Source: Thermoplasmatales archaeon (GTDB taxonomy: Archaea; Thermoplasmatota; E2; UBA202; JdFR-43). From it: a stretch of 42,648 nucleotides of DNA. The translations under genes and the position numbers were made by a program. This document shows positions 2,342 through 41,415 of the stretch, in pieces (position 1 is the first letter of the stretch; each line of letters begins with the position of its first letter). The stretch covers positions 1 through 42,648 of the forward strand of contig JACIWB010000007.1 in assembly GCA_014361245.1 (NCBI GenBank), read 5' to 3'. Under the pieces are notes generated by a model. It was not told the origin of the DNA, searched no databases, and saw nothing but the letters and a program-made list of their open reading frames with translations.

Positions 2342-4083
2342 AAATTTTCCTCCTTTACAGACAATTCTCCAGGAGGCAAAACTTTCTGCAATTCTTCTAT
2401 GCTCACGCCAAAAATTTCTGCAAAACTTTTTGCAATTTTATTTGGATTTTCCCTACCAGGAATAAAAACAACCCATTTTTTAGCAAGCTTTTTAATCGCT
2501 GACGGAGGACCACCCATTATCTTTATCTCTCCTTTAATTTCAACCAATCCAACCGCAATTTCAAGAGCGCACCTTTCATAATTCCTTTTTCCTCTTATCA
2601 TAAATGCTCCAAGAGGCAAATACATGCCAGATTCAGCACTCTTTGAAACCTGCCACGGATAAACCCAGTAGGCATCGCAAGCAGTAAATTGACCCCATGC
2701 TTTAGAATATGAAGCCGCAAACTGACATGCTTCCTTAATTGTGTCTTCGCTTATCTTCAATGGCTTTCCATCCAAATCATGCGCCTTTATTATGCAGGAC
2801 GGCGCCCCATGCACATCTGCATGCACATATATATCATTTTCCTTCAGATATTTCTTTACAATTTTTTCATTGCTTCTTGCATCCTTTCCTCCAATAACAA
2901 TATTTCCATCTGAGGAGATGAACCACCTATAATTTTCAAACCAGTGTTTTTTTTTCTTTTTAACTTCTTCCTTAAATTTACTGATTCTAATTTTTGTTTC
3001 TTCTATTGCTTTCCTTGCCCCCTCTATCTTTTCCCTCATTTTTTTACTCTTTAAATATTTATCATTTGCATTTTCATAGACACTTTTTCTCGAATCTATC
3101 TTAACAATCATATTCTTCCCAATATAAGGTAATTCAACCTCTATAAATGGATACTTCTTCCTTTTTATTTTCTCCTTTTCTTCACCTTTCAATATTCTTT
3201 CAATTAATTCATAATTTGCAAAAATAGCATCTCCCTCTTCCCTATATCTCTTCTCTTCTTCTTCGAATTTCTTTATTGCTTCTTCCTGTTTCGCTATCTG
3301 TCTCTCTATTCTTTCTTTCTCTTCCTCCTTTTTTTCCTTTTCCTCCTTTTTTATTGAATGATAATATTCATCATATGCCTCGCTTATACTTTCAAAAAAA
3401 ATTTTCTCATATCCTTCATATCTTTTTAGGGAATAAGGTAAAACATCTATAAATTCAGAATTTTTTATAATCTGTGGCTCAAATTTTTTCCCCTCAATTT
3501 TTTCAATAAATTTTCTAAAATCTTCATAACTTTTTATTTCCTCTGCATATATTCTTGGAACACCGTTTTCTATTAAAAAATTTAAAATATCCTCTCTTTT
3601 CATGAAATCTTCTTCAGAAATCTTCTTTGGATTTTTTGCAGAAGGAAAAATGTATTTTTCTCCTGGCTTTAATATCCTGTCTCTCCATTTTTGATGTGTA
3701 ATAGGCAGAATTATTTTCCATTCTTCATCTAAAAGCAATATATTTCCAGGAGGAATTATTTCAATAGCCAGCCTGTATATTTTTTCCTTAATTATTTCAA
3801 TTAAAACAATTCTATCCATTTCATACTGCTCTATCTTTGCTATCTTTCCCCCTCCTAAATATTTCCTTAAAGCCATTGCGAAAGGAGGTGGCTGCTTCTC
3901 TTCCTTCTGCCTGTATTTACTCAAGCATATCCATTTCCCGCTTTTTATAAAAAGCTCTTTATCCTTTAAATTTATGAAAATTTCATCATTTTTCTGATAT
4001 ATCTTTCCTACATATCTGCCCACCATGCTCTGGAGCTCGCTAACAATTGCATATATATCGACAGCATCGAGCCTTTCCTTCAT
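2338..4083 (-). CDS. rqcH: RqcH/NEMF (Rqc2, NFACT family) ribosome-associated quality control factor
   Basis: The ATG start at 4083 gives 581 residues; it forms an ATGA overlap with the upstream peptidase stop, whereas the longer frame needs a TTG. NFACT-N spans about 1-200. Asp9 and the DR pair (Asp90-Arg91, in [10 protein letters not shown]) match positions needed for tRNA-dependent tailing in Rqc2/RqcH. A highly charged coiled coil lies near 245-300 and another near 345-380. NFACT-R (DUF814) follows from [20 protein letters not shown] with [20 protein letters not shown] and a C-terminal GGPPSAI segment. NFACT proteins bind obstructed large subunits and can extend the nascent chain C-terminally. 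Tailing by archaeal members is inference. Confidence 0.93.
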
Positions 4084-5741
4084 TTTATCTGCAAGCAAGG
4101 CATTCCAAGAAGAATATACTCCTCCAGCGTTTTGTAATCCTGCCAGTCATCAAGAGGAATTTCAATAATATAATCTTTTATTGCATCATAAAACATATCC
4201 CCCAGAAATTCTGATTCGTAATAATTCTTAAAAAATTCTATTTCAAGATACCCAGAAAGAGTTTTAGTTGTATTGTATCCACTGAGCCCATATGAAAGCC
4301 CGCTCGCCCCAATAAATGCAACAGCACCGCCATGTCTCTTCTTTAAAAATTGCCATCCAAGGCATTCATATGTTAAATTAAATTGGGCTGTATGGCATGC
4401 ATTTGCAAAAATTATTGGTAATTTCCTGTTGTAATAAGTATATACATCAAGTAAGGTAATTCCAATCCATTCATCGCTGTTGTGTGGATGCGTTGCCCAG
4501 CTATTTGGTGAGCCATGTCCAGAGAAATCTATGAAATCAATTCCCTTCATTATTTCCTTCCATATGTTTTTCCTGTTCAATGAGCCATCGCTTGCCTTCA
4601 ACTTTATGCATTCAAAATCATTCATCGTGCCAGCTACAATCTCATTCAAATATTCTCCTTCATTGACATCCTCTCTATCAAATGTATCTGTGTCTCCACC
4701 GCAAAAAAGAATTCTTTTAACTTTATCGCTATTTTCATATTCAATAACCTTTTTTATAACATTTTTTAATTCCGCTTTACTCCTACAAGCAAATCTTCCA
4801 ACATAAACATCTGGCATTAAATCAATTTTGTCATATCTTCCTTCATAATTATATTCAGCAAATATTCCATTCCCATTGCTGTCCCAGTCATCAAAAACAA
4901 TGCTTCCATTCTCATATTTATAAATATCTGCAAAGTATAAATCGCTTATAAATTCATTTTCTGTAAATGGGGGGACATGGTCAATTGCATATGCGTATCT
5001 AACTGGCATGAGCCATTTCTCATTAAACCCAAAAGCCCTTCCTCCTACAAGCATAACATATTTTATTCCCCATTCCTCAATTGCATTTTTAATGAAATAT
5101 TTCACTTTTTCAGCATCATCCCTGCCATTTCTCGCTACATTGCTACTGTAAATTTCATTCAACCCCACTGCTATTGTCTTTATTCCCTTGCTTTCCTTAT
5201 GCTGCTTCAATGCTTCAATCTCGCTCAGCCATGCATCTGGTGAAATTATTAAAAAATCATATAGCGAGGCACTTTCAGTTTTTTCTGGCAAAACATAATC
5301 AATTTTTACATCAAATTCTGCATGCAAAACTTCATTTCTCAAAGCATTGTATCTGAAAGGATAAAGATATAAGGAAAGGAAAATTACTCTTTCGCCATTG
5401 TTTATTCCTGCATGAATTTCATATTCATACCAGCTTGAAGGATAAAACTCATCCTTGCTATATATTTCGCCCTCTTTTATTTCAAATTTTTTTGGATAAG
5501 GAGCGGGAGCTGGCTTTATTTTTTCCTTTAATTTTATCTTTTCAACATTTTTTTCCTTTACTATTACCTCCTTTATTTCAGTTCCAAACGGAAATACATA
5601 TGTTTCATATTTATATGGCAAAACTGGATAGCCCTCTTTATAAATAAAATTTGTATAGCCAGCAAAGATATTTTCATTGCTTTTTTGAACTGCCACAGGA
5701 GCAATCATTACAAGAAATGTTATAAATGCTAAAACTTTCAT
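4080..5741 (-). CDS. Secreted C25 (gingipain-like) cysteine peptidase
   Basis: A 553-residue protein with a signal peptide ([18 protein letters not shown]). An N-terminal beta-rich propeptide-like region (about 25-150, [19 protein letters not shown]) is typical of C25 precursors. The clan CD catalytic pair is intact: His409 in [11 protein letters not shown] and Cys449 in [12 protein letters not shown]. Asp-rich segments such as [14 protein letters not shown] and [15 protein letters not shown] lie between. The protein ends with the catalytic domain, without adhesin repeats or a C-terminal anchor, so it is probably released. It is the first gene of an operon with rqcH and pelA (ATGA overlaps). 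A promoter-like TATA and a hairpin precede it. Activity is likely; cleavage specificity cannot be read from sequence. Confidence 0.87.
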
Positions 5742-16619: not shown

Positions 16620-18497
16620 ATGAAAAAATTATTAGTGCTTGTTGCTTTCCTTTTGTTTGTAAATTCAATAAACGCAATTCCCGTGAATGAATGGGAAAGA
16701 AATGTTGTCTATAGAAATATAACTCTTTTTGCTCCTGCAGTTGCGGAAATAAATGGAGAAAGCGTTGGAGTGCTTACTGAAATAAATGTTACGATGATGA
16801 ATGGCTCAGGGAATGTATTTGTAACAACAAAACCAATGACACAGCTTGATATGCAGGGCTCCGCAAAACTTGCTGTATTTGTTGCCTGCTCACTTGCTGG
16901 AAAAGATGCAAAAGATTATGACTTCATATTCAGGGTTGTTTCCTCCTCGCCCATCGTCGGCGGCCCATCCGCGGGCGCAGTGATGACAGTTGCTGCGGTT
17001 TGCTTGCTTGAGAATTTGAGTGTTAGCAATGATGTTATAATGACAGGAATGATAAATCCAGACGCAAGCATTGGCCCAGTTGGAGGAATTCTTGAAAAAG
17101 GAGAGGCTGCTGGCAGTGCGGGCTTTAAATATTTTTTAATTCCAAAAGGGCAGAGCATACAATATAAGACGGTTGAGGAAAAAATTGGCTTTTTAACAAT
17201 ATATAGGAGCGTGCCAGTTAATGTATCTGAAGAGCTTTATAAAAAATACGGGATGAATGTTATAGAAGTAGAGGATATAAATGAAGCACTTGCTTATTTC
17301 ACTGGTTTCATGTTTGAAGAGAAGAAATCCGATGTGCCAATAATATCTTCGGATTTTTATAGAGAAATAATGAAGCCAATGGAGGAAAAGGTTATAGAGG
17401 AAGCGGAAGAGATGTATGAAAAAGCTGAAGAAAATTTAAGCAAAACATCTTTACCATTAGGATGGCCATGGTATAATCCTCGTAGCATAGTTTCAAATTC
17501 TCTGGAAAATGCAAGAAAAAATCTTGATGAAGCAAGAAATGCATTATATAATGAATTTTATTATTATGGGATAAGCAAGGCATTTCAATCAAAAATAAAC
17601 TCACTTTTTGTAATATATGCCTGCAATTTTTACAATGGTAAAGGAATTGAAGAAATAAGGAAGGAAGTAGAAGAAATTGTTAATAAGAGCATTTCAGATA
17701 TGAAAAATGCGGAAATAAAAGGGCTTGAAAGTTTGCAATGCATTGGCTCAGCCCAGAAAAGAATTCTTGAAGCAGAAGAATATTTAAATAAAAGCGGAGA
17801 TGATCTGTCTGTGCTATATAACCTTGCATATGCAAAGGAGAGATGTTTAACTGCTTACTGGTGGATGAATTTGAGCAATTATTTCAATGAGAGTTATAAT
17901 ATAAATGAAACATGGATAAAGGAAATTGCAGAAGAATATTATGAATATGCCCAGGATATTTTTTCATATGCAAATATTTTGAGCCAAGAGACGGGTTATT
18001 CAAGCAATTTTATAAGTAAGGCAAATGAAGCTCTTTCAAGAGCTAATGAGCAAAAAGAAGAATTTCCCTCAGCAAGCTTATTTAATTCTCTTGAATCAAT
18101 AGCAAATTCAAATCTTGCAATAGAAATGATTGGTGTAAATGATTTGAGTGATAAGTTGAATAGAACAAGAGAAATGGCAAGTTATGCAATTCAGAAAGCA
18201 AGAGATGCCGGAATAGAGCCAATATTAGCAGTAAATTATAATGAATTTGCAAGAAGCATTGAAAGTGATGCATTAAATTCACTGGTTTATTATAAATATG
18301 CTTACATAATAGCAAATACTCTTTGCCTTTCAAAAGGATACAATGCTATAGGAATTGAAAAAGTAAATATAAATGCACCACTTCCCGAAGAAAATAAAGA
18401 AACTAAAGATAAAAATCAGTTATTTGCTGTGGCATTTATTTCTTTAATCGGTGGAATTTTAGTTGGTATTCTTTTCGCGACAAGGAAATATGAATAA
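16620..18497 (+). CDS. Secreted, membrane-anchored Lon-like (S16-fold) serine protease, COG1750 type
   Basis: A 625-residue protein with a signal peptide (MKKLLVLVAFLLFVNSINA). The Lon-type proteolytic domain (about 30-210) has the catalytic Ser117 in GGPSAGAVM and Lys160 in GPVGGILEKGEAAG, 43 residues apart as in Lon. There is no AAA+ ATPase domain. A long helical region rich in acidic residues and NxS/T sequons follows, then one membrane helix near the C-terminus (LFAVAFISLIGGILVGILF) and a short RKYE tail. The protease would face the outside. Recalled as the archaeal COG1750 predicted protease; targets are unknown. Confidence 0.87.
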   Translation: MKKLLVLVAFLLFVNSINAIPVNEWERNVVYRNITLFAPAVAEINGESVGVLTEINVTMMNGSGNVFVTTKPMTQLDMQGSAKLAVFVACSLAGKDAKDYDFIFRVVSSSPIVGGPSAGAVMTVAAVCLLENLSVSNDVIMTGMINPDASIGPVGGILEKGEAAGSAGFKYFLIPKGQSIQYKTVEEKIGFLTIYRSVPVNVSEELYKKYGMNVIEVEDINEALAYFTGFMFEEKKSDVPIISSDFYREIMKPMEEKVIEEAEEMYEKAEENLSKTSLPLGWPWYNPRSIVSNSLENARKNLDEARNALYNEFYYYGISKAFQSKINSLFVIYACNFYNGKGIEEIRKEVEEIVNKSISDMKNAEIKGLESLQCIGSAQKRILEAEEYLNKSGDDLSVLYNLAYAKERCLTAYWWMNLSNYFNESYNINETWIKEIAEEYYEYAQDIFSYANILSQETGYSSNFISKANEALSRANEQKEEFPSASLFNSLESIANSNLAIEMIGVNDLSDKLNRTREMASYAIQKARDAGIEPILAVNYNEFARSIESDALNSLVYYKYAYIIANTLCLSKGYNAIGIEKVNINAPLPEENKETKDKNQLFAVAFISLIGGILVGILFATRKYE

Positions 18498-19060: not shown

Positions 19061-19190
19061 TCTTTAATGTATAAATATAGCACATTAATGCAGTATGGAA
19101 TACATCAATATCAAAAAATTTGTTTTTTCATATTAATTCCATCAAAAAACTTTTTATAAAGAAAATTTTATAGTTTTGGAGGCAGATAAA

Positions 19191-22100
19191 ATGAAAGGAA
19201 AAATCGTATTAAGCATTGGGGTTGTGCTGGCAATGTTAGTGAGTTCTATAGCACCTATAGCAAGCTCTTTTGAGCTAGGAGAAACTATTACAAAAGAGCC
19301 AAGAGAAGTAAGAATGAAATTTGATTTCCTTATGCCAAAATTGAACAATGTGATGCTTTCTGGAAAAACTTATTCAGTTGTTGATATGGGATTGCCTACT
19401 ATAGGAAATGCTGGGGAGCCAGAAATACCAGTAAAGCCAGTAAATGTATTACTTCCATATGGAGCTGAACTAAAGGAAATAAAAGTTATTGCGGATGAGC
19501 CAATTTTGATTGGAAAAGCCAAAATTACTCCAAAGCCATCATTAATTCCCATTGGAGAAAATGACTTTGTTTTAGTTGCAGAAGAGAATGAAGAAATATA
19601 CAATTCAGACGAAATTTATCCTGGCTATCTATACAAGGAAGTAACAACTCAATATTTCAGGGGCTTTCCAGTAGTTACAATAAATTTATATCCAGTTCAG
19701 TGGAATCCATTGACTGAGGAGTTATATCTCTATCCAAACATGGAACTTGTTGTTGAATTGAAAGATGGGCAAGTAAATGAGCTATTCAGAGGAACAGAAG
19801 TTGATAGGCAGGAAGTTACAAAAATGGTTGATAATCCAAGAGAAGTTTTAACATATCCATTGCTTCCAAGCCATTCATGTGAATATGTTATTATAACAAA
19901 TGAAGCGTTGAAAAATGCACCAGGCCCATATAATTTCCAGGCATTGGCAAATTCAAAAATTGCAAAAGGAATGAATGCAACAATTGTAACTGTTGAATGG
20001 ATATATTCAAACTTTGGTGGAGTAGATAATCCAGAAAAAATAAGGAATTTCATAAGATGGGCGTATCAGGAATGGCATACTCAATATGTATTGCTTGGAG
20101 GGGATGCAGATGCTGGAAATGAAATTGTTCCAGTAAGGAGGCTTTGGAATGAAACATATTTTGGAAATTACAAAGCACACATACCATCTGATTTATACTA
20201 TGCATGCTTAGATGGAAGTTATAATAGTGATGGCGACAGCTACTGGGGCGAGCCAACTGATGGAGAAGGAGGAAAAGATGTTGATTTAATTGCAGAAGTA
20301 TATGTTGGCAGGGCACCAGTTGATAATGCAGCAGAGCTTGCAAACTTTGTAAGAAAAACACTTGAATATGATAGCTCGCAGGATCCTTATCTAAATAAAG
20401 TTTTGCTTTGTTCGGAATATGTTGGATTTGGAGGAATTGCAAATTATGGCTCAGTTTTTAAGGAAGAAATGAGAAATGGCTCAAATGCAAATGGCTACTA
20501 TACAGTTGGTATTCCCGGAGATGAATACACTATTTTAGCATTGCATGACAATGAAACCTTTACTTGGAGTGTTGAACAATTAAAAGAGATAATAAACAGT
20601 GGCATCCATATAATAAACCATTTGGGACATGGAACAATCTCTACTCTAATGAAAATGGTTTCAAGCGATATAGCATCTTTGGAAAATGAAGGAAAATATT
20701 TCTTCCTATATACGCAAGCATGTCTTTCTGGAAACTTTACTTATAATGACAGCATAGCGGAAAAACTCGTTAAAAGTGAGAATGGAGCATTTGCAGTTAT
20801 AACAAATGCTGATTATGGTTTTGGAAGAAGATGGACAACCGATGCCCCAAGCCAGGCATATGATAGAGAATTCTTTGATGCGGTATATGGAGAAAATATA
20901 AGGGAGATAGGAAAAGCAAATCAGGATTCAAAAGAAGATAATTTATATCGCTTGCAGGAAGACGGGATGAGATGGTGCTATTATGGATTAAATCTGCTTG
21001 GTGACCCTGAAATCGCAATAAAGGCGGGAGCAGTATATAATCATGATGTAGGCGTAAAATCAATAAATGAGCCAAAGGGAAAAATATCAACAGGAACGCA
21101 TGCTATAAATGCAACAATTGAAAATTCAGGATTGAGCAATGAAGTTAGAGTCGATGTATTTTGTTCCATATACAAGCTCGACAAGGTCATCCACTTCTTT
21201 GATGATATGGAAAGCGGCTCAGCCAACTGGACGGTAATAGACAAAGATGGCGACGGCCATACCTGGACAATTTCTACAGCAAGATATAAGAGTCCAACCC
21301 ACAGCTTTAGATGCACGGATTATACTACATACCTCCCGAATTCAATAGATGAACTTGTTTCCAAGGCAATTGACCTTAGCTCAGTTGATAATGCGATTTT
21401 GGAATTCTGGTATTGGGCGAAGAATGACTGGCTCACATATGCACACATGCCCTATGGTGACTATCTTACAGTTTATTTGAGCAGTGATGATGGTGTAACA
21501 TGGGTGGAAGCAAAAACTTACATTACTTATACCTCCGAAAATTGGTGGTTAATGAGTATCCCGATAGAAAAATATGTTAATTTGACAAGCCATGTAAGAA
21601 TTAAATTCACATTTGTATCGGATGCCCTCACTCATTATGAAGGAACGTATATTGACGATGTTGTTGTATATTCATGGGTACCTACAATAATGTATGAGGA
21701 TGATACAAGAATATTAATAGACCCAGGGGAAAGAGAATTTGTTGAATTTGCTTATAACTTCTCATTTGAGGGCTTTTATGCAATAAATGTAACAGCATTC
21801 ATTCCAGATGATGAATATCCAAGAAATAACTGGAAGAACATAACAATTGAAGTAAGAAATATAAAAGACGCTGGAGTAATTTCAATAAATTCTCCAGATA
21901 CAAATATTCCTCCTGGAAGTTATACAGTGAATGCAACAGTAACAAACCTTGGAACAATTGATTTAACTAACCTGCCAGTTAATTGCACAGTTTATTACAT
22001 AAATCAATCAACAATATTGGATGAGGACTTTGAATTTTTAACACCTCCAAACTTCAGAACAGGTTGGCTTGTAGAAGATACTAACGGAGATGGAACAAAA

Positions 22101-25100
22101 TGGGTTACATCAACATCCTATCCATATGATGGTTTCAATTGTGCTTTCTATCAATCTCATGCATCAAATACAGCAAGTGATTGGGTATTTACACCCGCCT
22201 TAAACCTTAAAGGAGGAGCAAGTTATACTCTCTCATTCTGGTATAGAGCATACTCAGCATCTTATCCAGCAAGTATGCGAGTTATGATTGGCTCCTCTCA
22301 AAGTTCATCTGGAATGACAACATTGCTGTGGAATAATTCTTCAATAAAAACAACTACTTACACCCAGGCAACAATTTCATTCAGTGTAGAATCGACAGGA
22401 ACATATTATATCGGCTTCCATAGCTACGGGGGAAGCAACGCTAATAGAAGAGTACATGTCGATAAAATATTATTGAATGAAGTTGCTTATGAAATCATCT
22501 ACTCAAACGAGATAAATATAGCAAGTTTGCCAGTGAGGAAGTCAGTGAATGTCGAATTCTCATCGGTTGGTTTTTCAAGAGAAGGAGATTATATAATAAA
22601 TGTAACAACAAAACTTGCTGATGATGAAGATACAACAAATGATTTAAAAAGCAAAACATTGAAAGTTATAAGCATTCAGGATGCAGGAATTAAACAGATT
22701 AACTATCCAACAGAACTGATAACAACAGGAAATGCAAATGTAAATCTAACATTAAAGAACTATGGAAATGTTCCATTAAATAATGTTGGGGTAAATTGCT
22801 TAGTTTATAGTGTAGGCACAACACTTGTAAAAGAAGGATTTAATTCAAGAAGCAGCTCCACTGCTTCGCCTGGCTGGACATTCAGCGGTGTTGGAAGGGG
22901 TACATCAACAGCTGCTCCTAGCCCGCCATATTATCTGTTGGCTACTCCTACTGGAGTAAAATATGTAATTAATAACTCAGTTCCATTTGGAAGCGGAAAC
23001 TATGCGATGGAGCTATGGATTGCAAAAGACCAGGCAGCAATATCTGAGAGGGTGGAGTTCGTGAATATAAGCTATGGAAATTCATCAACTGGGCCATGGA
23101 ATACGCTGTTTAGCATCAATTACACTTTATTAAATGCAATGGAAGTTGAAAAGTGGTACAGGGTAGTGGTTGATTTATCACCCTGTGCTAACGGAAATAG
23201 ATGGATAAATATAAGTGCAACTCTTACAAAAACAAGAATCAGAATTGATGATGTATGGATATACAGCACAAATTTAGTTAGCTACGGCACCACTACAGTA
23301 AATCTTGATGTTGATGAGGAAAAATATGTTGAAATTGCTCCTTGCAATTTTGGAGAAGGAATTTACGATATAATTGCTACAGTGTCAGCAGATGCGGATA
23401 TTTCAAATAATTTCTTATTCTTCAAAGCAAGAGCACACAACCTGAGCGATTTAGGTGTATTGTCCATAAATTCTCCGCCCGCAATAATTCCAACTGGATG
23501 GCAAGCGGGAAATGTAACAGTCAAAAACTTTGGAAACATTCAAAAAACAAACATACCAGTAAATCTATCAATTTATATACCAGAGACAACAATAATAAAT
23601 GAAACCTTTGAAGGTTTGACACCTCCCAACTTCAGCCCGGGATGGGCAATTGAAGACGGCGGAGATGTTGGCGGAGGCAGTGGCAATAGCGTTTATCTAA
23701 AATGGGCTTCCTATAATAACTCGCTTTATGCTCATTCCTCACCAACGATGGCGTATTTCTATTTTGGAACCTCACCAAATAAAGATGCAAATGATTGGCT
23801 ATTCACAAATGCTACATATCTTGAAGCAGGAAAGGCATACTGGTTAAAATTCTGGTATAGGGTAAGTCAACCATATATGCCAGCAAAACTCGATGTATGG
23901 GTTGGCTCCTCTCAAAGCTCATCTGGAATGACAAAGAAAATATGGGATAATTCATATATTAATAACACTGTGCATAATGAAGAGAGCATTATATTCACCG
24001 TCCCAGCGGATGGCGCATACTACATCGGATTCCATGTGTATAGCTATGTGCAGCGTGCTGCAGCAATATATGTAGATGATATACAGCTTATATCCTTGAT
24101 ACCTGTGTATAGTGAAGAAAAGACAATAACATCTCTTGCTCCGGACGAAGAAACTTATCTGAATTTTGGACCAATTTATGCATATCCAGAAGGAGAATTC
24201 ATATTGAATGTCAAAACAACTCTTGAAGATGAAAATGTAACTAATGACGGAAAACACATGGTTGTTAAAGTTTGGAATATAGACGATGCTGGAACAAAAT
24301 CAATAAATTATCCACCATCAGGGCTGTTATTGCTACCACCTGACCAATCAATTAGAGTTAATGCAACAATTACAAACTATGGAAATGTTCCACAGCCAAA
24401 TATTCCAGTAAATTGCTCGATATCCAAACTCACATACTCCCCGATTCTTGAGGAGGACTTCGAAAGCGGTTTGCCATCTGGCTGGATAATTGAAAATGGA
24501 GGAGCCACAGCATATTATCCAGGCACAAACATACCCGCAACATGGACAGACCAAAACCCAGGACACAGAGTTCCGGAAGGCGGTTGCAGGGGCAGATTTA
24601 TGATTGTAGATAATGACTATGCTGGATGGATAATTATGGAGGAAGGGCTTGTTACAAAGGATATAAGTTGTGCTGGCCAGAGTAAGGTTATACTTGAATT
24701 TGACCATGCTTGGCTGGGAGGACTGGCTACTGAGAGAGGATTAGTGCAGGTATGCTGGTATGATAGCCATGAGATGGAGTGGGTAAACACTACTATCGCA
24801 ACTTTCACAGGCCATGATATAGATATAGGTCATAAAACATATGATATCACTTCGCTTGCAGCTGGTAAGACAATAAGAATAAAATGGTATTATAACAGCT
24901 ACAGAGATTATGGTTTCTGGTGGATGGTGGATAATGTAAGAATTGGTGGTGAGCCAGCATATGATCTAAAATTCTGGGACGAAAAAACAGTTAATGATTT
25001 GGACCCAGGAGAAGAGGCATTTGTTGAATTTGAACCATGGAACTGGTTCAGCAGTGGAGCGGGATGGTATGCAATAAATGTGACAACAATGCTTGATGGA

Positions 25101-28100
25101 GATGAATTTCCATCTAATGACACAAAAACAACAATAGTATTCCTACAGGGTGCTTATGATGTAGAGGTAAGGGCAATTGAAAGCCCATTGCCAGGAATAT
25201 ATACAACAGGAACATCCTTTGCCGTGAATGCTACAGTAAAGAATGTTGGAGCAGAAAATCTGACAGATATTAATGTAATTTGCACAATAAGAAATTCAGC
25301 TGGCGATATTGTATTTACAGAAGAAAAAATAGTTTCAACATTAGCTTCTGGACAGCAAACAATTGTTGGATTTTCATCCTGGACAGCAAATATCGAGGAC
25401 ACATACACTATAAATGTTACCGCATCAATATATGGAGATGCAAACCTTGATAACAACTATAAGGAAATATCAATTGTAGTAAATAATATTCCAGATGCAG
25501 CAGTTGTTTCAATAAATTATCCAACAGGAACACAATTTACTGGAAGCTATGCAGTTAATGCAACAGTTGCAAACTTTGGAAATGTTCCAATTGGTTCATT
25601 TAATGTAAATTGCACAATAAGAAATTCAGCTGGCGATATTGTATTTACAGATGAAGAAACAGTAAGTGGCCTAGCTGTTGGACAGAAGGCATATGTAATA
25701 TTTGCTCCATGGACAGTAAGCATTGAAGACACATATAAGATAAATGTGACAACAATGCTTGTTGGAGATGAAGATAACAGTAACGATTATCAGGAAATAA
25801 CAATTATAATAAACGATATAGATGATGTAGGGATGACATCAATTAATTATCCACCACCAATAGTTCCTGTTGGAGAGCATATAATAAATGCAACAGTAAA
25901 GAACTTTGGAAATATTCCGAAGGAAAACATCCCAGTAAATTGCTCCGTTTATCTTGTTTCCAGCCCAGTAACCATCTTACAGGAAGGATTTGAAGCCAAC
26001 CTAGAACCGCCCGCCGGCTGGAACGAGGTGGATGTGGTATACACTGGTGGAGATTGGAGCACAAGCGGAGCAACCACAGCATGCAGCCCATATTACGGAT
26101 ATTACATGGCAAGATTTAATTCTGGAAGCAGCGCCGCTCCAGGATCAGCGACGAGATTGTATCCCGACAGAATTGATTTCACGAGTTATTCAAATGTTAT
26201 TCTAGCTTTCTGGATGTACCATGACACAAATAATCCTGCCAAGAAAGACAGAATAGTTATCCAATATTCACTTGATAATACAACATGGAATAACATAACC
26301 TCAATTTATAGATACGATGGTTCAAGTGGTTGGAAGCTTCATACCATAGATTTATCTCCTTATGTAGCGGGTAAAAATGCATGGGTAGCATTTATGGGAG
26401 TAGCACAGCAGGGAGGACATATCTACATAGATGAGGTATCCATTATTAGCGGAACACTCATTCCTGTTTTCAGTGAAGAAAAAATAGTATCATATTTAGA
26501 TGCTGATGAAGAAAGCTACTTGACATTTACTCCAATAGATGCTTCTGTTGAAGGAATAACATTCCTGCTTAGTGTTAAAACCAAACTTGCTGGAGATGAA
26601 AATACAGGAAATGATGAAATACTCATGCTAGGAAAAGTATGGAACTTTGAGGATGTAGGTGTGGTGTCAATAAATTATCCAGCACAATTGATTGGGCCAG
26701 GATTGCATTCAGTAAATGCAACAGTTGCAAACTATGGAAATGTCCCAGTAGCAAATATTAAAGTTAATTGCTCAATAACACAAATATACGGTGATATCAA
26801 AATAATGGAAGGATTTGAAACGAGCTGGCCACCAGCAGGATGGAAGAGTGTTATAGTCAGTGGATCTGCTCCGTGGTCAAGATCTGGCATTTCTCACACT
26901 GGAAGCTATGCAGCATATTCACCATATCAGGCAGGTGAAAGATATCTTGCAACAGATGTAATTTCTCTTGGAAGTGGAGACTATACGCTTGAATTTTGGT
27001 TATACAGGACTCTTAACTCAATTACCGGAGAATATTTAAATATAAGCGTTGGACCGAGCCAAAATGGACCATGGACAACAGTGTTGAGCTTGGATTATAA
27101 TGCAATAAATAACATAAGTGGATATAAGAAATTCACAGTAAACTTGTCATCATACGCTAATCAGGATATATCGATAAGATTCAACCATCTAACGAAAGGA
27201 GGAGCATCAATATGGCTGGACGATATAGTTGTGTATCGTGAGGGAGCTGGATTAGTTTTCGAAAATGAAAAAGAAATAACATATATGCAAGTGGGAGAAC
27301 AGAAACATGTATTGTTTGATGCATTTAACTTCGAAGCAGGTCAATACTTGGTAAAAGTAAAAACAATATTAAGCGAGGATGAAAACATTTACAACGATGC
27401 GAAGGAAAAAGAATTTTTAGTTTTCACAATTATAGATGCTGGAGTTGTTGCAATAAATTATCCAACAGCTGGCGTATATATGCCAGGAAACTATTCTGTT
27501 GTAGCAACAGTAAAGAACTATGGAACAGTAACAGAGACATTTGATGTGAAATGCGATGTATATAAAGTCAGAAATGTAACCGCTTTATATGAAGATGTTG
27601 AAGGCGGATGGGATGGATGGGCTGTTTATGAACCGAGTGGAATAAATCTATGGCACATAAGCACAAGAAGATATGTAAGTGGAAGTCATTCATTTTATTG
27701 CGGGGACGAGCTAACAGGAAGCTACTATCCAAACATAGCTAACTTTTTAATATCCCCGGGAATAAATGTAGCTGGTGCAGTAAAAGTTACCCTAAGTTTG
27801 AAAGCATGGATTGATGTAGAAGATAGGTATGACTATTTCTATATCACGGTGAGCCCAGATGGTACCAATTTCTACATTGTCCAGGTAATTTCAACTTCTT
27901 CACGCGAATGGAGGAGTTTATCCTATGACATCACTAACTATGCATCAAGTGGAACAATATGGCTTGGCTTTATCCTCCAGAGCGATTCAGCTGTGCAATA
28001 TGAGGGAGTATATCTTGACGATATTGTAGTAACAAAACAGTTAAGGGATAAGGTCTATACAGAAACAGTTACAGTGTATAATTTGCTTAGCGGGGCTGAA

Positions 28101-29363
28101 AAGCAAGTAACATTCCCACCATTTACAGCAGAGGAGAACAGCGTTTATGTAATAAATGTAAGAACACTGCTTGCTGGGGATATAAATCCAGGAAACGATA
28201 CCAAAGAGGTAACAATTAGCACAGTTAATCTTCCACCAGTTACAACATGCAGTTGTGTTGGTTCAATGGGAGAAAATGGATGGTATGTTGGACCAGTTAC
28301 AATCTATTTATCTGCAACAGACCCACAAGAAGTAAGGGCAACATACTATCGCATAAATGGAGGAGCATGGCAAACATACACTGGCCCAGTAAGTGTTTCA
28401 ACTGAAGGATTGTATAAAGTTGAATACTACTCAGTAGATACCTTTGGAAGCACTGAAGAAATTAAATCATGCAGCTTTGGAATAGCTACTTCAATGCCAA
28501 TAACAGAATGCATAATATCTGGCTTGCTTGGAGATAATGGATGGTATAAGAGCGATGTGCAGATTACACTTAAAGCAAATGCATACATATGTGGAGTAAA
28601 AGCAACATACTATCGCATAGATGGAGGAGCATGGCAGGAATATACTGGAACATTTACATATAGCGGAGAAGGAAATCATATTATAGAATACTACTCAATA
28701 AGCAACGCTGGAATAGTTGAAACACCAAAATCAACATCATTCAAGATAGATAAGACAAGCCCAACAGCAAAAGTTATATATCCAAATGGTGGCGAGGTTT
28801 TAGGAGGAATAATAACAATAAGATGGACAGCAAGCGATAACATTGGCATTGCAGGAATTGATTTGCTGTATAGCAGTGATGCTGGATTAACATGGAATGT
28901 TATAGCAAGCAATGTTGCAAACACTGGCTCATATAACTGGAATGTTGCTAGCTTGCCATACGGAAGCAACTACATGGTTAAAGTAGTTGCAAAAGATAAC
29001 GCAGGAAATGTTGCAGTCGATACTTCAGATGGAACATTTACAATAAGCATGCCAAGTCCACCAACAGTAAGCATAATTAAACCAAGAAATGCCTTGTATA
29101 TCTTTGATAGAGAAATAATTCCACTGCCAATACCAGTAATAATTGGAGGAATAACAGTTGAAGCAACAGCAAGCTCAAGCATAGGCATTGCAAAAGTAGA
29201 ATTCTATATAGATGGAGCACTTAAATTCACAGATACAACCGAGCCATACTCGTGGCTCTGGGATGAAAGGGCAATAGGAACACATGAAATAAAAGTAATT
29301 GCCTACGATACCACTGGACAGAAAGCAGAAGACAGAATAAGCGTATTCATAATAAACTTCTAA
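19191..29363 (+). CDS. Giant secreted gingipain-like protein: C25 peptidase with ten CARDB units and inserted adhesin-like domains
   Basis: The ATG at 19191 follows GGAGG (19178-19182), giving 3390 residues; a TTG at 19176 lies upstream of that site. A signal peptide (KIVLSIGVVLAMLVSSIAPI) is followed by a C25 propeptide-like region (about 30-220) and a C25 domain with His480 in NHLGHGTIS and Cys511 in TQACLSGNF. Ten CARDB-like units start near residues 617, 891, 1162, 1418, 1697, 1988, 2100, 2210, 2486 and 2747, each with a (V/I)NATV.N.GN-type strand. Eight hold a cleaved-adhesin/jelly-roll-like insert (EDFE..GW...). Two OmpL47-like modules (about 3015 and 3102) and two Ig-like domains (about 3193 and 3289) end the protein. 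No C-terminal anchor or sorting motif is seen. Confidence 0.9.
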   Translation: MKGKIVLSIGVVLAMLVSSIAPIASSFELGETITKEPREVRMKFDFLMPKLNNVMLSGKTYSVVDMGLPTIGNAGEPEIPVKPVNVLLPYGAELKEIKVIADEPILIGKAKITPKPSLIPIGENDFVLVAEENEEIYNSDEIYPGYLYKEVTTQYFRGFPVVTINLYPVQWNPLTEELYLYPNMELVVELKDGQVNELFRGTEVDRQEVTKMVDNPREVLTYPLLPSHSCEYVIITNEALKNAPGPYNFQALANSKIAKGMNATIVTVEWIYSNFGGVDNPEKIRNFIRWAYQEWHTQYVLLGGDADAGNEIVPVRRLWNETYFGNYKAHIPSDLYYACLDGSYNSDGDSYWGEPTDGEGGKDVDLIAEVYVGRAPVDNAAELANFVRKTLEYDSSQDPYLNKVLLCSEYVGFGGIANYGSVFKEEMRNGSNANGYYTVGIPGDEYTILALHDNETFTWSVEQLKEIINSGIHIINHLGHGTISTLMKMVSSDIASLENEGKYFFLYTQACLSGNFTYNDSIAEKLVKSENGAFAVITNADYGFGRRWTTDAPSQAYDREFFDAVYGENIREIGKANQDSKEDNLYRLQEDGMRWCYYGLNLLGDPEIAIKAGAVYNHDVGVKSINEPKGKISTGTHAINATIENSGLSNEVRVDVFCSIYKLDKVIHFFDDMESGSANWTVIDKDGDGHTWTISTARYKSPTHSFRCTDYTTYLPNSIDELVSKAIDLSSVDNAILEFWYWAKNDWLTYAHMPYGDYLTVYLSSDDGVTWVEAKTYITYTSENWWLMSIPIEKYVNLTSHVRIKFTFVSDALTHYEGTYIDDVVVYSWVPTIMYEDDTRILIDPGEREFVEFAYNFSFEGFYAINVTAFIPDDEYPRNNWKNITIEVRNIKDAGVISINSPDTNIPPGSYTVNATVTNLGTIDLTNLPVNCTVYYINQSTILDEDFEFLTPPNFRTGWLVEDTNGDGTKWVTSTSYPYDGFNCAFYQSHASNTASDWVFTPALNLKGGASYTLSFWYRAYSASYPASMRVMIGSSQSSSGMTTLLWNNSSIKTTTYTQATISFSVESTGTYYIGFHSYGGSNANRRVHVDKILLNEVAYEIIYSNEINIASLPVRKSVNVEFSSVGFSREGDYIINVTTKLADDEDTTNDLKSKTLKVISIQDAGIKQINYPTELITTGNANVNLTLKNYGNVPLNNVGVNCLVYSVGTTLVKEGFNSRSSSTASPGWTFSGVGRGTSTAAPSPPYYLLATPTGVKYVINNSVPFGSGNYAMELWIAKDQAAISERVEFVNISYGNSSTGPWNTLFSINYTLLNAMEVEKWYRVVVDLSPCANGNRWINISATLTKTRIRIDDVWIYSTNLVSYGTTTVNLDVDEEKYVEIAPCNFGEGIYDIIATVSADADISNNFLFFKARAHNLSDLGVLSINSPPAIIPTGWQAGNVTVKNFGNIQKTNIPVNLSIYIPETTIINETFEGLTPPNFSPGWAIEDGGDVGGGSGNSVYLKWASYNNSLYAHSSPTMAYFYFGTSPNKDANDWLFTNATYLEAGKAYWLKFWYRVSQPYMPAKLDVWVGSSQSSSGMTKKIWDNSYINNTVHNEESIIFTVPADGAYYIGFHVYSYVQRAAAIYVDDIQLISLIPVYSEEKTITSLAPDEETYLNFGPIYAYPEGEFILNVKTTLEDENVTNDGKHMVVKVWNIDDAGTKSINYPPSGLLLLPPDQSIRVNATITNYGNVPQPNIPVNCSISKLTYSPILEEDFESGLPSGWIIENGGATAYYPGTNIPATWTDQNPGHRVPEGGCRGRFMIVDNDYAGWIIMEEGLVTKDISCAGQSKVILEFDHAWLGGLATERGLVQVCWYDSHEMEWVNTTIATFTGHDIDIGHKTYDITSLAAGKTIRIKWYYNSYRDYGFWWMVDNVRIGGEPAYDLKFWDEKTVNDLDPGEEAFVEFEPWNWFSSGAGWYAINVTTMLDGDEFPSNDTKTTIVFLQGAYDVEVRAIESPLPGIYTTGTSFAVNATVKNVGAENLTDINVICTIRNSAGDIVFTEEKIVSTLASGQQTIVGFSSWTANIEDTYTINVTASIYGDANLDNNYKEISIVVNNIPDAAVVSINYPTGTQFTGSYAVNATVANFGNVPIGSFNVNCTIRNSAGDIVFTDEETVSGLAVGQKAYVIFAPWTVSIEDTYKINVTTMLVGDEDNSNDYQEITIIINDIDDVGMTSINYPPPIVPVGEHIINATVKNFGNIPKENIPVNCSVYLVSSPVTILQEGFEANLEPPAGWNEVDVVYTGGDWSTSGATTACSPYYGYYMARFNSGSSAAPGSATRLYPDRIDFTSYSNVILAFWMYHDTNNPAKKDRIVIQYSLDNTTWNNITSIYRYDGSSGWKLHTIDLSPYVAGKNAWVAFMGVAQQGGHIYIDEVSIISGTLIPVFSEEKIVSYLDADEESYLTFTPIDASVEGITFLLSVKTKLAGDENTGNDEILMLGKVWNFEDVGVVSINYPAQLIGPGLHSVNATVANYGNVPVANIKVNCSITQIYGDIKIMEGFETSWPPAGWKSVIVSGSAPWSRSGISHTGSYAAYSPYQAGERYLATDVISLGSGDYTLEFWLYRTLNSITGEYLNISVGPSQNGPWTTVLSLDYNAINNISGYKKFTVNLSSYANQDISIRFNHLTKGGASIWLDDIVVYREGAGLVFENEKEITYMQVGEQKHVLFDAFNFEAGQYLVKVKTILSEDENIYNDAKEKEFLVFTIIDAGVVAINYPTAGVYMPGNYSVVATVKNYGTVTETFDVKCDVYKVRNVTALYEDVEGGWDGWAVYEPSGINLWHISTRRYVSGSHSFYCGDELTGSYYPNIANFLISPGINVAGAVKVTLSLKAWIDVEDRYDYFYITVSPDGTNFYIVQVISTSSREWRSLSYDITNYASSGTIWLGFILQSDSAVQYEGVYLDDIVVTKQLRDKVYTETVTVYNLLSGAEKQVTFPPFTAEENSVYVINVRTLLAGDINPGNDTKEVTISTVNLPPVTTCSCVGSMGENGWYVGPVTIYLSATDPQEVRATYYRINGGAWQTYTGPVSVSTEGLYKVEYYSVDTFGSTEEIKSCSFGIATSMPITECIISGLLGDNGWYKSDVQITLKANAYICGVKATYYRIDGGAWQEYTGTFTYSGEGNHIIEYYSISNAGIVETPKSTSFKIDKTSPTAKVIYPNGGEVLGGIITIRWTASDNIGIAGIDLLYSSDAGLTWNVIASNVANTGSYNWNVASLPYGSNYMVKVVAKDNAGNVAVDTSDGTFTISMPSPPTVSIIKPRNALYIFDREIIPLPIPVIIGGITVEATASSSIGIAKVEFYIDGALKFTDTTEPYSWLWDERAIGTHEIKVIAYDTTGQKAEDRISVFIINF
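22289..22320 (+). repeat. Near-identical 32-nt segment shared by adhesin-like inserts 2 and 4
   Basis: The segment recurs at 23903-23934 with one mismatch and encodes GSSQSSSGMT in both copies. Confidence 0.8.
25281..25321 (+). repeat. 41-nt identical segment in CARDB unit 6 (partner in unit 7)
   Basis: Identical to 25611-25651, exactly 330 nt away; it encodes CTIRNSAGDIVFT. This is much more conserved than the surrounding repeats. Confidence 0.9.
25611..25651 (+). repeat. 41-nt identical segment in CARDB unit 7 (partner in unit 6)
   Basis: Second copy of the segment at 25281-25321. Confidence 0.9.
28338..28372 (+). repeat. 35-nt repeat in the two OmpL47-like modules
   Basis: Repeated at 28602-28636 with one mismatch; the two copies encode ATYYRINGGAWQ and ATYYRIDGGAWQ. 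Confidence 0.85.
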
Positions 29364-29423
29364 CCCTCTTCCCTTTTTTAATTTTTACAAAAACAATAAA
29401 ATACAAATTTTTATTTACAAAAC

Positions 29424-31624: not shown

Positions 31625-32750
31625 ATGAAAATAAAATATATTGCATCTGGTCTTCTTTTGTTTTGTTTAGTAATATTAATACCATCCACGATAAAAGCAA
31701 CTCCCCAATGCTCCAATTCACATAAATGGGGATGAGGATTTTGCAAACAAAGCAGGCAGTGAAAGATGGCGGGGCAATGGCACAGCAACTAATCCTTACA
31801 TAATCCAAAATTATGAAATAGATGGTGAGGGCAAAGCTTATTGCATATGGATAGAAAATACAAGTGTTTATTTTGTGATAAGAAACTGCGCATTTTATAA
31901 CGCAATATCATCTTGGCCAGCCCCGTGCGGCGTGGGAATATGTCTGAAAAACGTTACTAATGGAAGATTGGAAAACAACAAATGCTATGGCAATATTTAC
32001 GGCATACGCCTTGTTGCTTACTCAAGCAATAACACCATTACAAACAACGACTGCTATGAGAACAATAAAGGCATACGCTTGGACGACTCAAGCAACAACA
32101 ATGTAGCAAGTAACAATTGCTATAACAATTCCGAGGGAATATATCTAGATGATTCGAGCAACAACATCGTAGCAAATAACAAATGCTACGGTAATCTTGA
32201 TGGCATATCTTTATATTCCTCTAGCGAAAAAAATATTATAGCAAACAATACCTGTTACGAGAATTTTTTTGCTGGCATTCACCTTTATCACTATTTAAAG
32301 CCCGGCTACCCAAGTAACAATAGCATAGAAAACAACAAATGCTATAAAAATCGTGAAGGAATATACCTCTCTTCATCGCACAACAACAGCATCACAAACT
32401 GCAGTGTTTATGACAACAGTTACGGTTTTCGTATTTCTTCTTCAAATATTCAAATTCACTATTGCAGTATCTATGGAAATAAAGAATACGGAATTTCTAA
32501 TGAAAACTTGGAAGGAGAATATGAAGTAAATGCAACATACTGCTGGTGGGGGCATGGAAGCGGGCCATTTCATGAAACAAATCCCGGCGGCCAAGGAGAT
32601 AATGTAAGTGATAAAGTTTTATTTATTCCCTGGCTTGAAAAGACAAGTGAAGGAGGCAATACTTCTCCTGAGAAGAAAGGAATTCCTGGCTTTGAACTAT
32701 TTGCAATTGTTGGAGCAGTAGCATCCATATTGAATAGGAGGAAAAAATGA
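31625..32750 (+). pseudogene. NosD-like right-handed beta-helix surface protein, frameshifted after the signal peptide
   Basis: An ATG at 31625 starts a signal peptide (KYIASGLLLFCLVILIPS) that runs out of frame after a CCCC tract at 31703-31706. With one C removed, the frame reads ATPNAPIHINGDEDFANKAG and joins the downstream reading frame, which continues to 32750. The body has about seven 22-23-residue beta-helix repeats with NN..(V/I).NN.CY.N..GI.L patterns (NosD/pectate-lyase-like). The C-terminus is GIPGFELFAIVGAVASILNR plus RKK, a PGF-type archaeosortase sorting signal. Either a real frameshift or an assembly error. The next gene overlaps as ATGA. Confidence 0.85.
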
Positions 32751-40149: not shown

Positions 40150-41415
40150 TTAAAGTTTAATGCTTTGCAAAAAATAGTTTTTCAAAAATTCATCCCATTG
40201 AGTAAATTTTGAAAAAGAAAGGTCTTCATAGTTGGATGGCAATTTTTTTAAAAGTATTGGCTTATTATAAAGAAATTCTTCCTCTGGGAAATATATACTC
40301 AATCCATTATCGAGCCCAGAAATTGTTTTTTTACAGAGAATAGCATCATTTATGCTTTTCATAATATCCTCGCAAATATTTTTTATTTCATCATTTTTAG
40401 AATAATTTTTTAGATTTTCAAGAAAATTGTATAAATCTATGTTGCAATCATATGCATATATTTCAATTGATAGCATATCATATATTGGATAGAAAATATG
40501 GTATTTTGGACTCCATTTACCGTATTCGTTTGAATTAATTCTTGCATATTTTACTGCCTCCATATCATTTATTATTGTTTTTGATAATTCATCCAATCCC
40601 TTTACAATTTTTTCTAACTTACTTAAATTTATTGCTGAAAGAGTTGTGTTTATTGTTACTATATTCAACTTTTTAAACGGCAGGATATCGAAAAATTTTG
40701 CTATAAAATTATTGCATGGATGATAAACCTTTGACTCAAAAAATTTTACAGTTTCTACAGCAAATTTTTCAGCATCCTCACGGAGAGTAGATATTACTTT
40801 CACATCTGGCCATATATCCAAAAATGGATTATCAGTTTCCATTGCCACAAAATAGTTTGCATAAGGAGAAATTTCATATGCTACCTCTATCATTCCTTGT
40901 AAGCATGCTACAAAACTAACTAACTCGATTTTCCTTTTTCCATCCTCAGTTATATTCTTCAAAACATTTCCCATTGAGGGAGTAGTTATAAGATTAAAAT
41001 TTCTGTATCCATACCTATAATCAGGGCATATGCCTTGCCATCCAGGTCCAACAGAAATTATCAGGAGCGCATACCGTTTTGCTGGATAATTTTCAATTGA
41101 AAATCTGCAGAATTTTTCAAGCGTCTCACTTTTTCCAGTATCCGATTCTCTTTCCCATGGAAGCTCTATTAAATTGTCCTTTTCAATTTTATACAGAAAT
41201 GTATCATTATCAGCGAATCCATCAACGAGCGCGACTATGTTAATCCTATCATTTTCTACCCTGCTAAGATTCTGTAGATATAATTTTGCATTATTACACA
41301 TTTTGTTCTCTGTAGCAATATAAAACATCAGTGTCCATTCCTTGCCAGATTTGCCAGCATTTAATGGAATAACAGAAAGAATTATTATTATCGCAAATAG
41401 AGAAGAAAGCTTCAT
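40150..41415 (-). CDS. Secreted clostripain-like (C11) protein, catalytic His replaced
   Basis: 421 residues with a signal peptide (MKLSSLFAIIIILSVIPL) and the clostripain opening WTLMFYIATENKM. Where active relatives have an HGSGW-type motif, this protein has SVGPGWQGI (Val122 at the His position). The later Cys171 in FVACLQGMIEVAYEI is kept, 49 residues away. It is probably not a normal peptidase and may be a pseudoenzyme or binding protein. The start follows GGAGG and lies 1 nt after the nop5 stop, so it is translationally coupled to nop5. Confidence 0.82.
   Translation of the reverse strand: MKLSSLFAIIIILSVIPLNAGKSGKEWTLMFYIATENKMCNNAKLYLQNLSRVENDRINIVALVDGFADNDTFLYKIEKDNLIELPWERESDTGKSETLEKFCRFSIENYPAKRYALLIISVGPGWQGICPDYRYGYRNFNLITTPSMGNVLKNITEDGKRKIELVSFVACLQGMIEVAYEISPYANYFVAMETDNPFLDIWPDVKVISTLREDAEKFAVETVKFFESKVYHPCNNFIAKFFDILPFKKLNIVTINTTLSAINLSKLEKIVKGLDELSKTIINDMEAVKYARINSNEYGKWSPKYHIFYPIYDMLSIEIYAYDCNIDLYNFLENLKNYSKNDEIKNICEDIMKSINDAILCKKTISGLDNGLSIYFPEEEFLYNKPILLKKLPSNYEDLSFSKFTQWDEFLKNYFLQSIKL

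Follow-up and report, generated by a model that had tools for sequence, protein, structure and literature searches.

An archaeal gingipain-like protease with adhesin domains nested in CARDB units and a recurrent terminal domain as a candidate for surface retention

The contig JACIWB010000007.1 of a Thermoplasmatales archaeon encodes a giant C25 protein of 3390 residues in an intact open reading frame (19191–29363, + strand of the 42,648-nucleotide stretch analysed here, termed the window). The protein begins with a signal peptide, which is followed in order by a C25 propeptide, the C25 catalytic domain, ten CARDB units and then OmpL47-like and Ig-like modules, two of each; eight jelly-roll inserts sit within the ten-CARDB stretch. 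The frame and the Pfam and NCBIfam domains thus confirm the original prediction of a gingipain-like protein with one C25 domain and a long adhesin-like array. Judged by its computed domains, from which its activity is extrapolated, the giant is most likely a C25 cysteine protease that is synthesised as a zymogen and exported via Sec. The domain order, the catalytic pair, the homology of the inserts, their nesting, the conservation in relatives and the re-use of the terminal Ig-like domain (CTD) were all computed. We give an even chance to a model in which this exported zymogen grips particles by its adhesin arm, cuts protein and is held at the cell surface by the CTD. The arm of ten CARDB units and eight adhesins would multivalently bind particles rich in detrital protein or glycan, the C25 domain would cut nearby protein, and the CTD would hold the enzyme on the cell surface, or direct it there, such that peptides are freed near the cell. 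The CTD, which the original prediction missed, is a more valuable lead than the giant itself. Sediment Thermoplasmatota are regarded as degraders of buried protein, and we know of no account of how they hold exported enzymes close; a domain common to about thirty exported proteins per genome offers a concrete and testable handle on enzyme retention.

The ATG at 19191 was taken as the likely start because of the spacing of the upstream GGAGG, and an alternative TTG start at 19176 was discarded on the same ground. A TATA-like stretch was found 5′ of the gene. The hydrophobic N-terminus is consistent with the signal peptide that had been proposed. The features are as follows.

19178–19182, +: Shine-Dalgarno-like GGAGG, 8 bases 5′ of the ATG, seen in the sequence
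19191–19268, +: predicted signal peptide, residues 1–26 (hydrophobic N-terminus, inferred cleavage site)
19311–19766, +: C25-type propeptide, residues 41–192 (Pfam Propeptide_C25, E 2.9e-13)
19884–21014, +: Peptidase C25 catalytic domain, residues 232–608 (Pfam, E 1.5e-63; PDB matches Kgp and RgpB)
20628–20630, +: catalytic His480 (alignment with RgpB, Kgp and paralogues)
20721–20723, +: catalytic Cys511 (same alignment)
21042–28229, +: ten CARDB-type Ig units, residues 618–3013 (segmentation; Pfam CARDB, E 1.4e-7)
21192–21662, +: nested jelly-roll (cleaved-adhesin/MAM/choice_anch_J) insert 1 (NCBIfam; segmentation; profile against PDB)
22014–22469, +: nested insert 2 (NCBIfam; segmentation; profile against PDB)
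22827–23255, +: nested insert 3 (segmentation; profile against PDB)
23592–24083, +: nested insert 4 (segmentation; profile against PDB)
24444–24941, +: nested insert 5 (segmentation; profile against PDB)
25155–25820, +: CARDB units 6 and 7, without insert (segmentation)
25974–26438, +: nested insert 6, in unit 8, the unit that was folded (Pfam MAM; AlphaFold2; Foldseek match to Kgp K1)
26802–27227, +: nested insert 7 (segmentation; profile against PDB)
27585–28025, +: nested insert 8 (Pfam InhA-like_MAM; segmentation; profile against PDB)
28230–28754, +: two OmpL47-type modules, residues 3014–3188 (NCBIfam NF047446, E 2.5e-29)
28755–29057, +: Ig-like module, residues 3189–3289 (segmentation; weak match to the terminal-domain profile)
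29058–29360, +: terminal Ig-like domain (CTD), residues 3290–3390 (ends at the stop; 34 genome copies; fold)

OmpL47-type and Ig-like modules follow the CARDB array, in agreement with the original prediction, and there are two of each. That prediction had also seen no visible C-terminal anchor, which holds for a transmembrane or PGF-CTERM anchor, with the PGF motif, a transmembrane stretch and a basic tail all absent from the giant's C-terminus (...ISVFIINF); it fails, however, in that the last 101 residues form a recurring terminal domain. The CTD matches Pfam Big_7 (PF17957) with 59.6 bits against a cut-off of 24.1, and the Big_7 match in the giant reaches an E-value of 9e-17; all 61 aligned copies of the CTD match Big_7 at E ≤ 0.01. 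AlphaFold2 models were assessed by confidence, DSSP and Foldseek; the predicted fold of the CTD is an Ig/FN3-like sandwich with a pLDDT of 98.1. Structural similarity search revealed that its core most closely resembles the FN3-like (X1/Big_7) modules of Clostridium thermocellum CbhA, with a TM-score of 0.81 on 3pe9, and the nearest PDB sequence is likewise CbhA (3pdd, E 1e-18). Compared to the CbhA modules, the CTD has an extra N-terminal β-hairpin (LYIFDREI.P) and is nearly always C-terminal. This hairpin is without counterpart among PDB sequences, because the best matches begin only at profile position 31, leaving the first 30 residues (LYIFDREI...IIIG) unmatched. NCBIfam holds no model for the CTD. 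Homology to the C-terminal domain of RgpB was considered and rejected, as RgpB lay outside the best 50 folds.

The CTD occurs in 34 copies in the giant's own genome, 32 of which reach to within 10 residues of the stop codon. By a crude measure, the N-terminus is hydrophobic and signal-like in 30 of the 34 carriers; of the remaining four, two are truncated by contig ends. Each of 17 sampled relatives of the same order has 9–47 copies, and three more distant class members that were sampled have 10, 2 and zero; in a profile search over 390 genomes of the phylum, strong matches were almost confined to one class. For the scan of named genomes the alignment of 24 sequences was too diverse, and a closer set of six was used. 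The named carriers are Thermoplasmata MAGs, such as Guaymas B44_G15, B78_G9, HyVt-387 and JdFR-43, many of which presumably stem from hydrothermal sediments or vents, as judged partly from isolate names. Two high-identity copies (L107, L129) lie in a MAG labelled Altiarchaeota (CSMAG_1615), whose contigs are possibly misbinned Thermoplasmatota. Over all loci read, which were partly picked via the CTD itself with a bias on its abundance and none on its position, 123 of the 147 copies are terminal (≤10 residues from the stop), compared to 0/51 for OmpL47, 0/47 for CARDB and 3/21 for the other Ig module in these loci. A few copies have extra residues after them. The carriers include C25, papain (C1), M28 and M14 peptidases, GH113/GH114 proteins, and NosD β-helix, PKD, cohesin and DUF11 proteins. 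Among carrier pairs, 459 are alike in the CTD and 99 are alike upstream; as judged by sequence comparison, the carriers are unrelated upstream. The CTD thus holds a terminal position on unrelated exported proteins, as would be expected of a C-terminal sorting domain. One carrier (L184, G000:C49:4200–6980) is a cohesin-domain protein that ends in the CTD. Of 21 genomes, 17 have dockerin matches, and in a genome other than the giant's own a C25 protein (L042, G015:C44) ends in a dockerin-like repeat, so a cohesin–dockerin assembly of exported peptidases is possible on sequence grounds.

Many exported C25 paralogues stop right after the catalytic domain and lack the CTD, which is therefore not needed for export as such; for the same reason we prefer retention to export as its role. 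The CTD is a candidate surface-retention or sorting domain that would be analogous, not homologous, to the type IX secretion system (T9SS) tail of the bacterial gingipains. We know of no partner, sortase or receptor for it. Another anchoring route exists beside it: an archaeosortase A gene is present (G000:C1:93711–94445, E 7e-44), and a NosD-like β-helix protein of the window (31875–32750, +) ends in PGFELFAIVGAVASILNRRKK, by eye a PGF-type archaeosortase tail. The short and insensitive PGF_CTERM model gave no match at E ≤ 1 in the same genome. The CTD would then be a second route, and we tentatively put forward, with somewhat less than even confidence, that it is an undescribed archaeal sorting or retention signal, carried by dozens of exported enzymes per genome within one Thermoplasmatota class, which would work beside archaeosortase and resemble the C-terminal domain of T9SS cargo without the machinery of that system. 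Alternatively, the CTD might be just a folding cap, a dimerisation module or a substrate-binding module of a freely secreted giant, its terminal position being historical. This reading, possible though rather doubtful, draws on the ordinary Big_7/FN3-like fold shared with the CbhA modules, on the export of C25 paralogues that lack the domain, and on at least two carriers (L186, L201) whose signal peptide looks lipobox-like, which would make a second anchor superfluous. A mere cap would, however, sit poorly with a domain that is terminal in so many copies, usually one per protein, on unrelated enzymes, while these proteins carry their other Ig modules internally and often in tandem; nor does it account for the 30 N-terminal residues that set the domain apart from PDB sequences.

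Upstream of the retention candidate and the adhesin arm lies the protease, and both its propeptide and its catalytic domain were detected as anticipated. The Peptidase_C25 match scores 215.8 bits against a cut-off of 23, which places the domain in family C25. In the alignment, His480 and Cys511, predicted to be intact, fall opposite the catalytic residues of both RgpB and Kgp, so that a misalignment is not indicated. In the paralogue alignment the catalytic His is missing in just two distant C25 paralogues. In a weak pairwise alignment, the S1-pocket residue matching Asp163 of RgpB, which bears on Arg/Lys specificity, is not conserved in the giant. Activation by cutting at the propeptide is plausible.

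The adhesin arm consists of exactly ten CARDB units, starting at residues 618, 892, 1163, 1419, 1698, 1989, 2101, 2211, 2487 and 2748, and exactly eight inserts, one in every unit but 6 and 7; both counts agree with the original prediction. The NCBIfam choice-of-anchor J model (choice_anch_J, NF038128) matches the inserts of the giant in seven stretches with an E-value of 3e-62, and Pfam MAM matches with 7.9e-21, whereas Pfam Cleaved_Adhesin (PF07675) stays under its cut-off in the giant (18.6 versus 21.4 bits). Despite this sub-threshold score, two further comparisons agree that the inserts are cleaved-adhesin-like jelly rolls, as had been proposed. A profile built from the eight insert-bearing units and run against PDB chain sequences matches domains K3 (3m1h, E 3e-12) and K1 (4itc, E 1e-9) of Kgp, and these matches span profile positions 50–206, which correspond exactly to the insert. 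Unit 8, modelled by AlphaFold2 with the eight units as alignment, gave a pLDDT of 83.7 and a pTM of 0.81, and Foldseek with this model returned Kgp K1 (4itc) with a TM-score of 0.73 on the target, followed by K3 (0.67) and K2 (0.61), in addition to MAM domains and CBM16. Profile and model alike identify the inserts as homologues of the cleaved-adhesin domains in Lys-gingipain from bacteria. Compared to choice-of-anchor J proteins, the inserts of the giant are nested in CARDB, and the terminal element is an Ig-like domain instead of a tripartite tail. The ten units (21042–28229) contain 50 N-X-S/T sequons (shuffled mean 30, sd 4.7), and the last 377 residues (28230–29360) contain none (shuffled mean 3.2); the CARDB–adhesin arm may be glycosylated.

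In the model of unit 8, the two halves of the CARDB fold flank the insert, and the strands at 34–55 and 200–226 are long enough to cross both domains, which places the adhesin domain in a β-hairpin of the CARDB fold. On this model, every adhesin domain is housed in a CARDB hairpin. The nesting bears on the mechanism proposed originally, in which a gingipain, as is the case for RgpA and Kgp, processes itself by cuts between domains, after which the adhesin fragments are released or bound again. The C25 domain, the propeptide and the cleaved-adhesin homology all accord with such a protein, and a protease-adhesin acting on extracellular proteins is plausible given the exported C25 domain and the true relatives of gingipain adhesins. 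Release of the adhesins by self-processing is nevertheless unlikely, since nested inserts cannot be freed intact by cuts between units, and a cut beside an insert would break its host CARDB domain. Single CARDB domains in relatives even carry two inserts. The junctions between units are short, and the Arg/Lys sites expected there exist in that basic residues lie within 8 residues of most junctions, but these are irregularly placed and share no common motif.

The giant resembles the gingipains RgpA and Kgp of Porphyromonas gingivalis in its signal peptide, propeptide, C25 His/Cys pair, jelly-roll adhesins and terminal Ig-like domain; RgpB also ends in an Ig-like C-terminal domain (PMC4804311). 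It differs from RgpA and Kgp in that its eight adhesins are nested in CARDB, in its additional OmpL47-like modules, in its archaeal host, and in a terminal domain outside the T9SS family. The T9SS tail (Por_Secre_tail, PF18962) is absent from both the giant and its genome, and by the tests made the giant appears not to be T9SS cargo. The gingipain plan of a C25 domain with cleaved adhesins thus exists, differently built, in an archaeon that lacks the tail domain of the T9SS. Exported C25 peptidases are a feature shared with the MBG-D/Thermoprofundales sediment Thermoplasmatota: according to the available parts of two reports, C25 genes of MBG-D archaea are known and expressed (PMC6461988), and C25 peptidases make up 41–45% of signal-peptide peptidases in estuary sediment (PMC6752024). 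In the same parts, genes are counted, and the nested architecture and the CTD are not described (PMC6461988, PMC6752024). Our literature search, which took in only a minority of subscription journals, found no description of nested CARDB–adhesin units or of the CTD. Overall, earlier publications already report C25 expansions in sediment Thermoplasmatota, whereas the nested architecture and the CTD appear undescribed.

C25 expansions were found in 36 of 41 genomes. About 20 C25 genes, including two giants, were counted in the giant's own genome, which spans 1.48 Mb and is 99% complete. A similar layout is found in the second giant (L021), in L040, L041 and L208 (same-genus genome), and in L209 from another genus of the same family; nested CARDB–insert units also occur elsewhere in the class. 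In L021, L040 and L208, one CARDB domain has two inserts in two different loops, and L209 has two inserts at a single place in CARDB. In L040 (G001:C8) the propeptide and the catalytic domain lie in different frames, which probably reflects a frameshift or an assembly error.

The two giants of the genome (P0001, described here, and L021) are 80% identical in C25 and 98% in the CTD; the protease and the last two modules together range from 80 to 98%, and units 3, 4, 8 and 9 share just 33–40%. By comparison, L021 and its sister-species counterpart L208 share 78–85% identity in units 3, 4 and 9. Conserved ends with divergent units would be expected if one protease and one anchor are kept while the ligands change. 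The same pattern, together with the CARDB-type Ig domains common to the hypervariable Ig proteins (VARTIG) of Thermococcales (PMC8416519), could point to a protein of conflict or kin recognition with the diverging adhesin units as its variable part, which is very improbable given that the variable part of VARTIG is the C-terminal Ig domain, the most conserved part here, that no cassette of Ig genes lies downstream of the giant gene, and that the catalytic protease is intact. VARTIG was accordingly discarded as the closest system.

At the DNA level, the last 1.2–1.4 kb of the giant gene is 87.5–91% identical to L021 and to an unrelated β-helix gene on contig 29, and positions 28234–29386 of the window are 90.7% identical to the 3′ end of an unrelated β-helix gene of the same genome (L182). 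Such near-identity to an unrelated gene suggests that the C-terminal cassette has been swapped between proteins or homogenised, by exchange or gene conversion.

Further exported or protease-related genes lie in the window. A second C25 peptidase (4080–5741, −) lacks the CTD, and an exported peptidase of the clostripain family (C11) was found at 40150–41415 (−) with an E-value of 2.5e-31. Upstream of the giant gene, 16620–18497 (+) encodes a protein that has a signal peptide and a Lon (S16) proteolytic domain and whose long tail ends in a hydrophobic, probably membrane-spanning segment.
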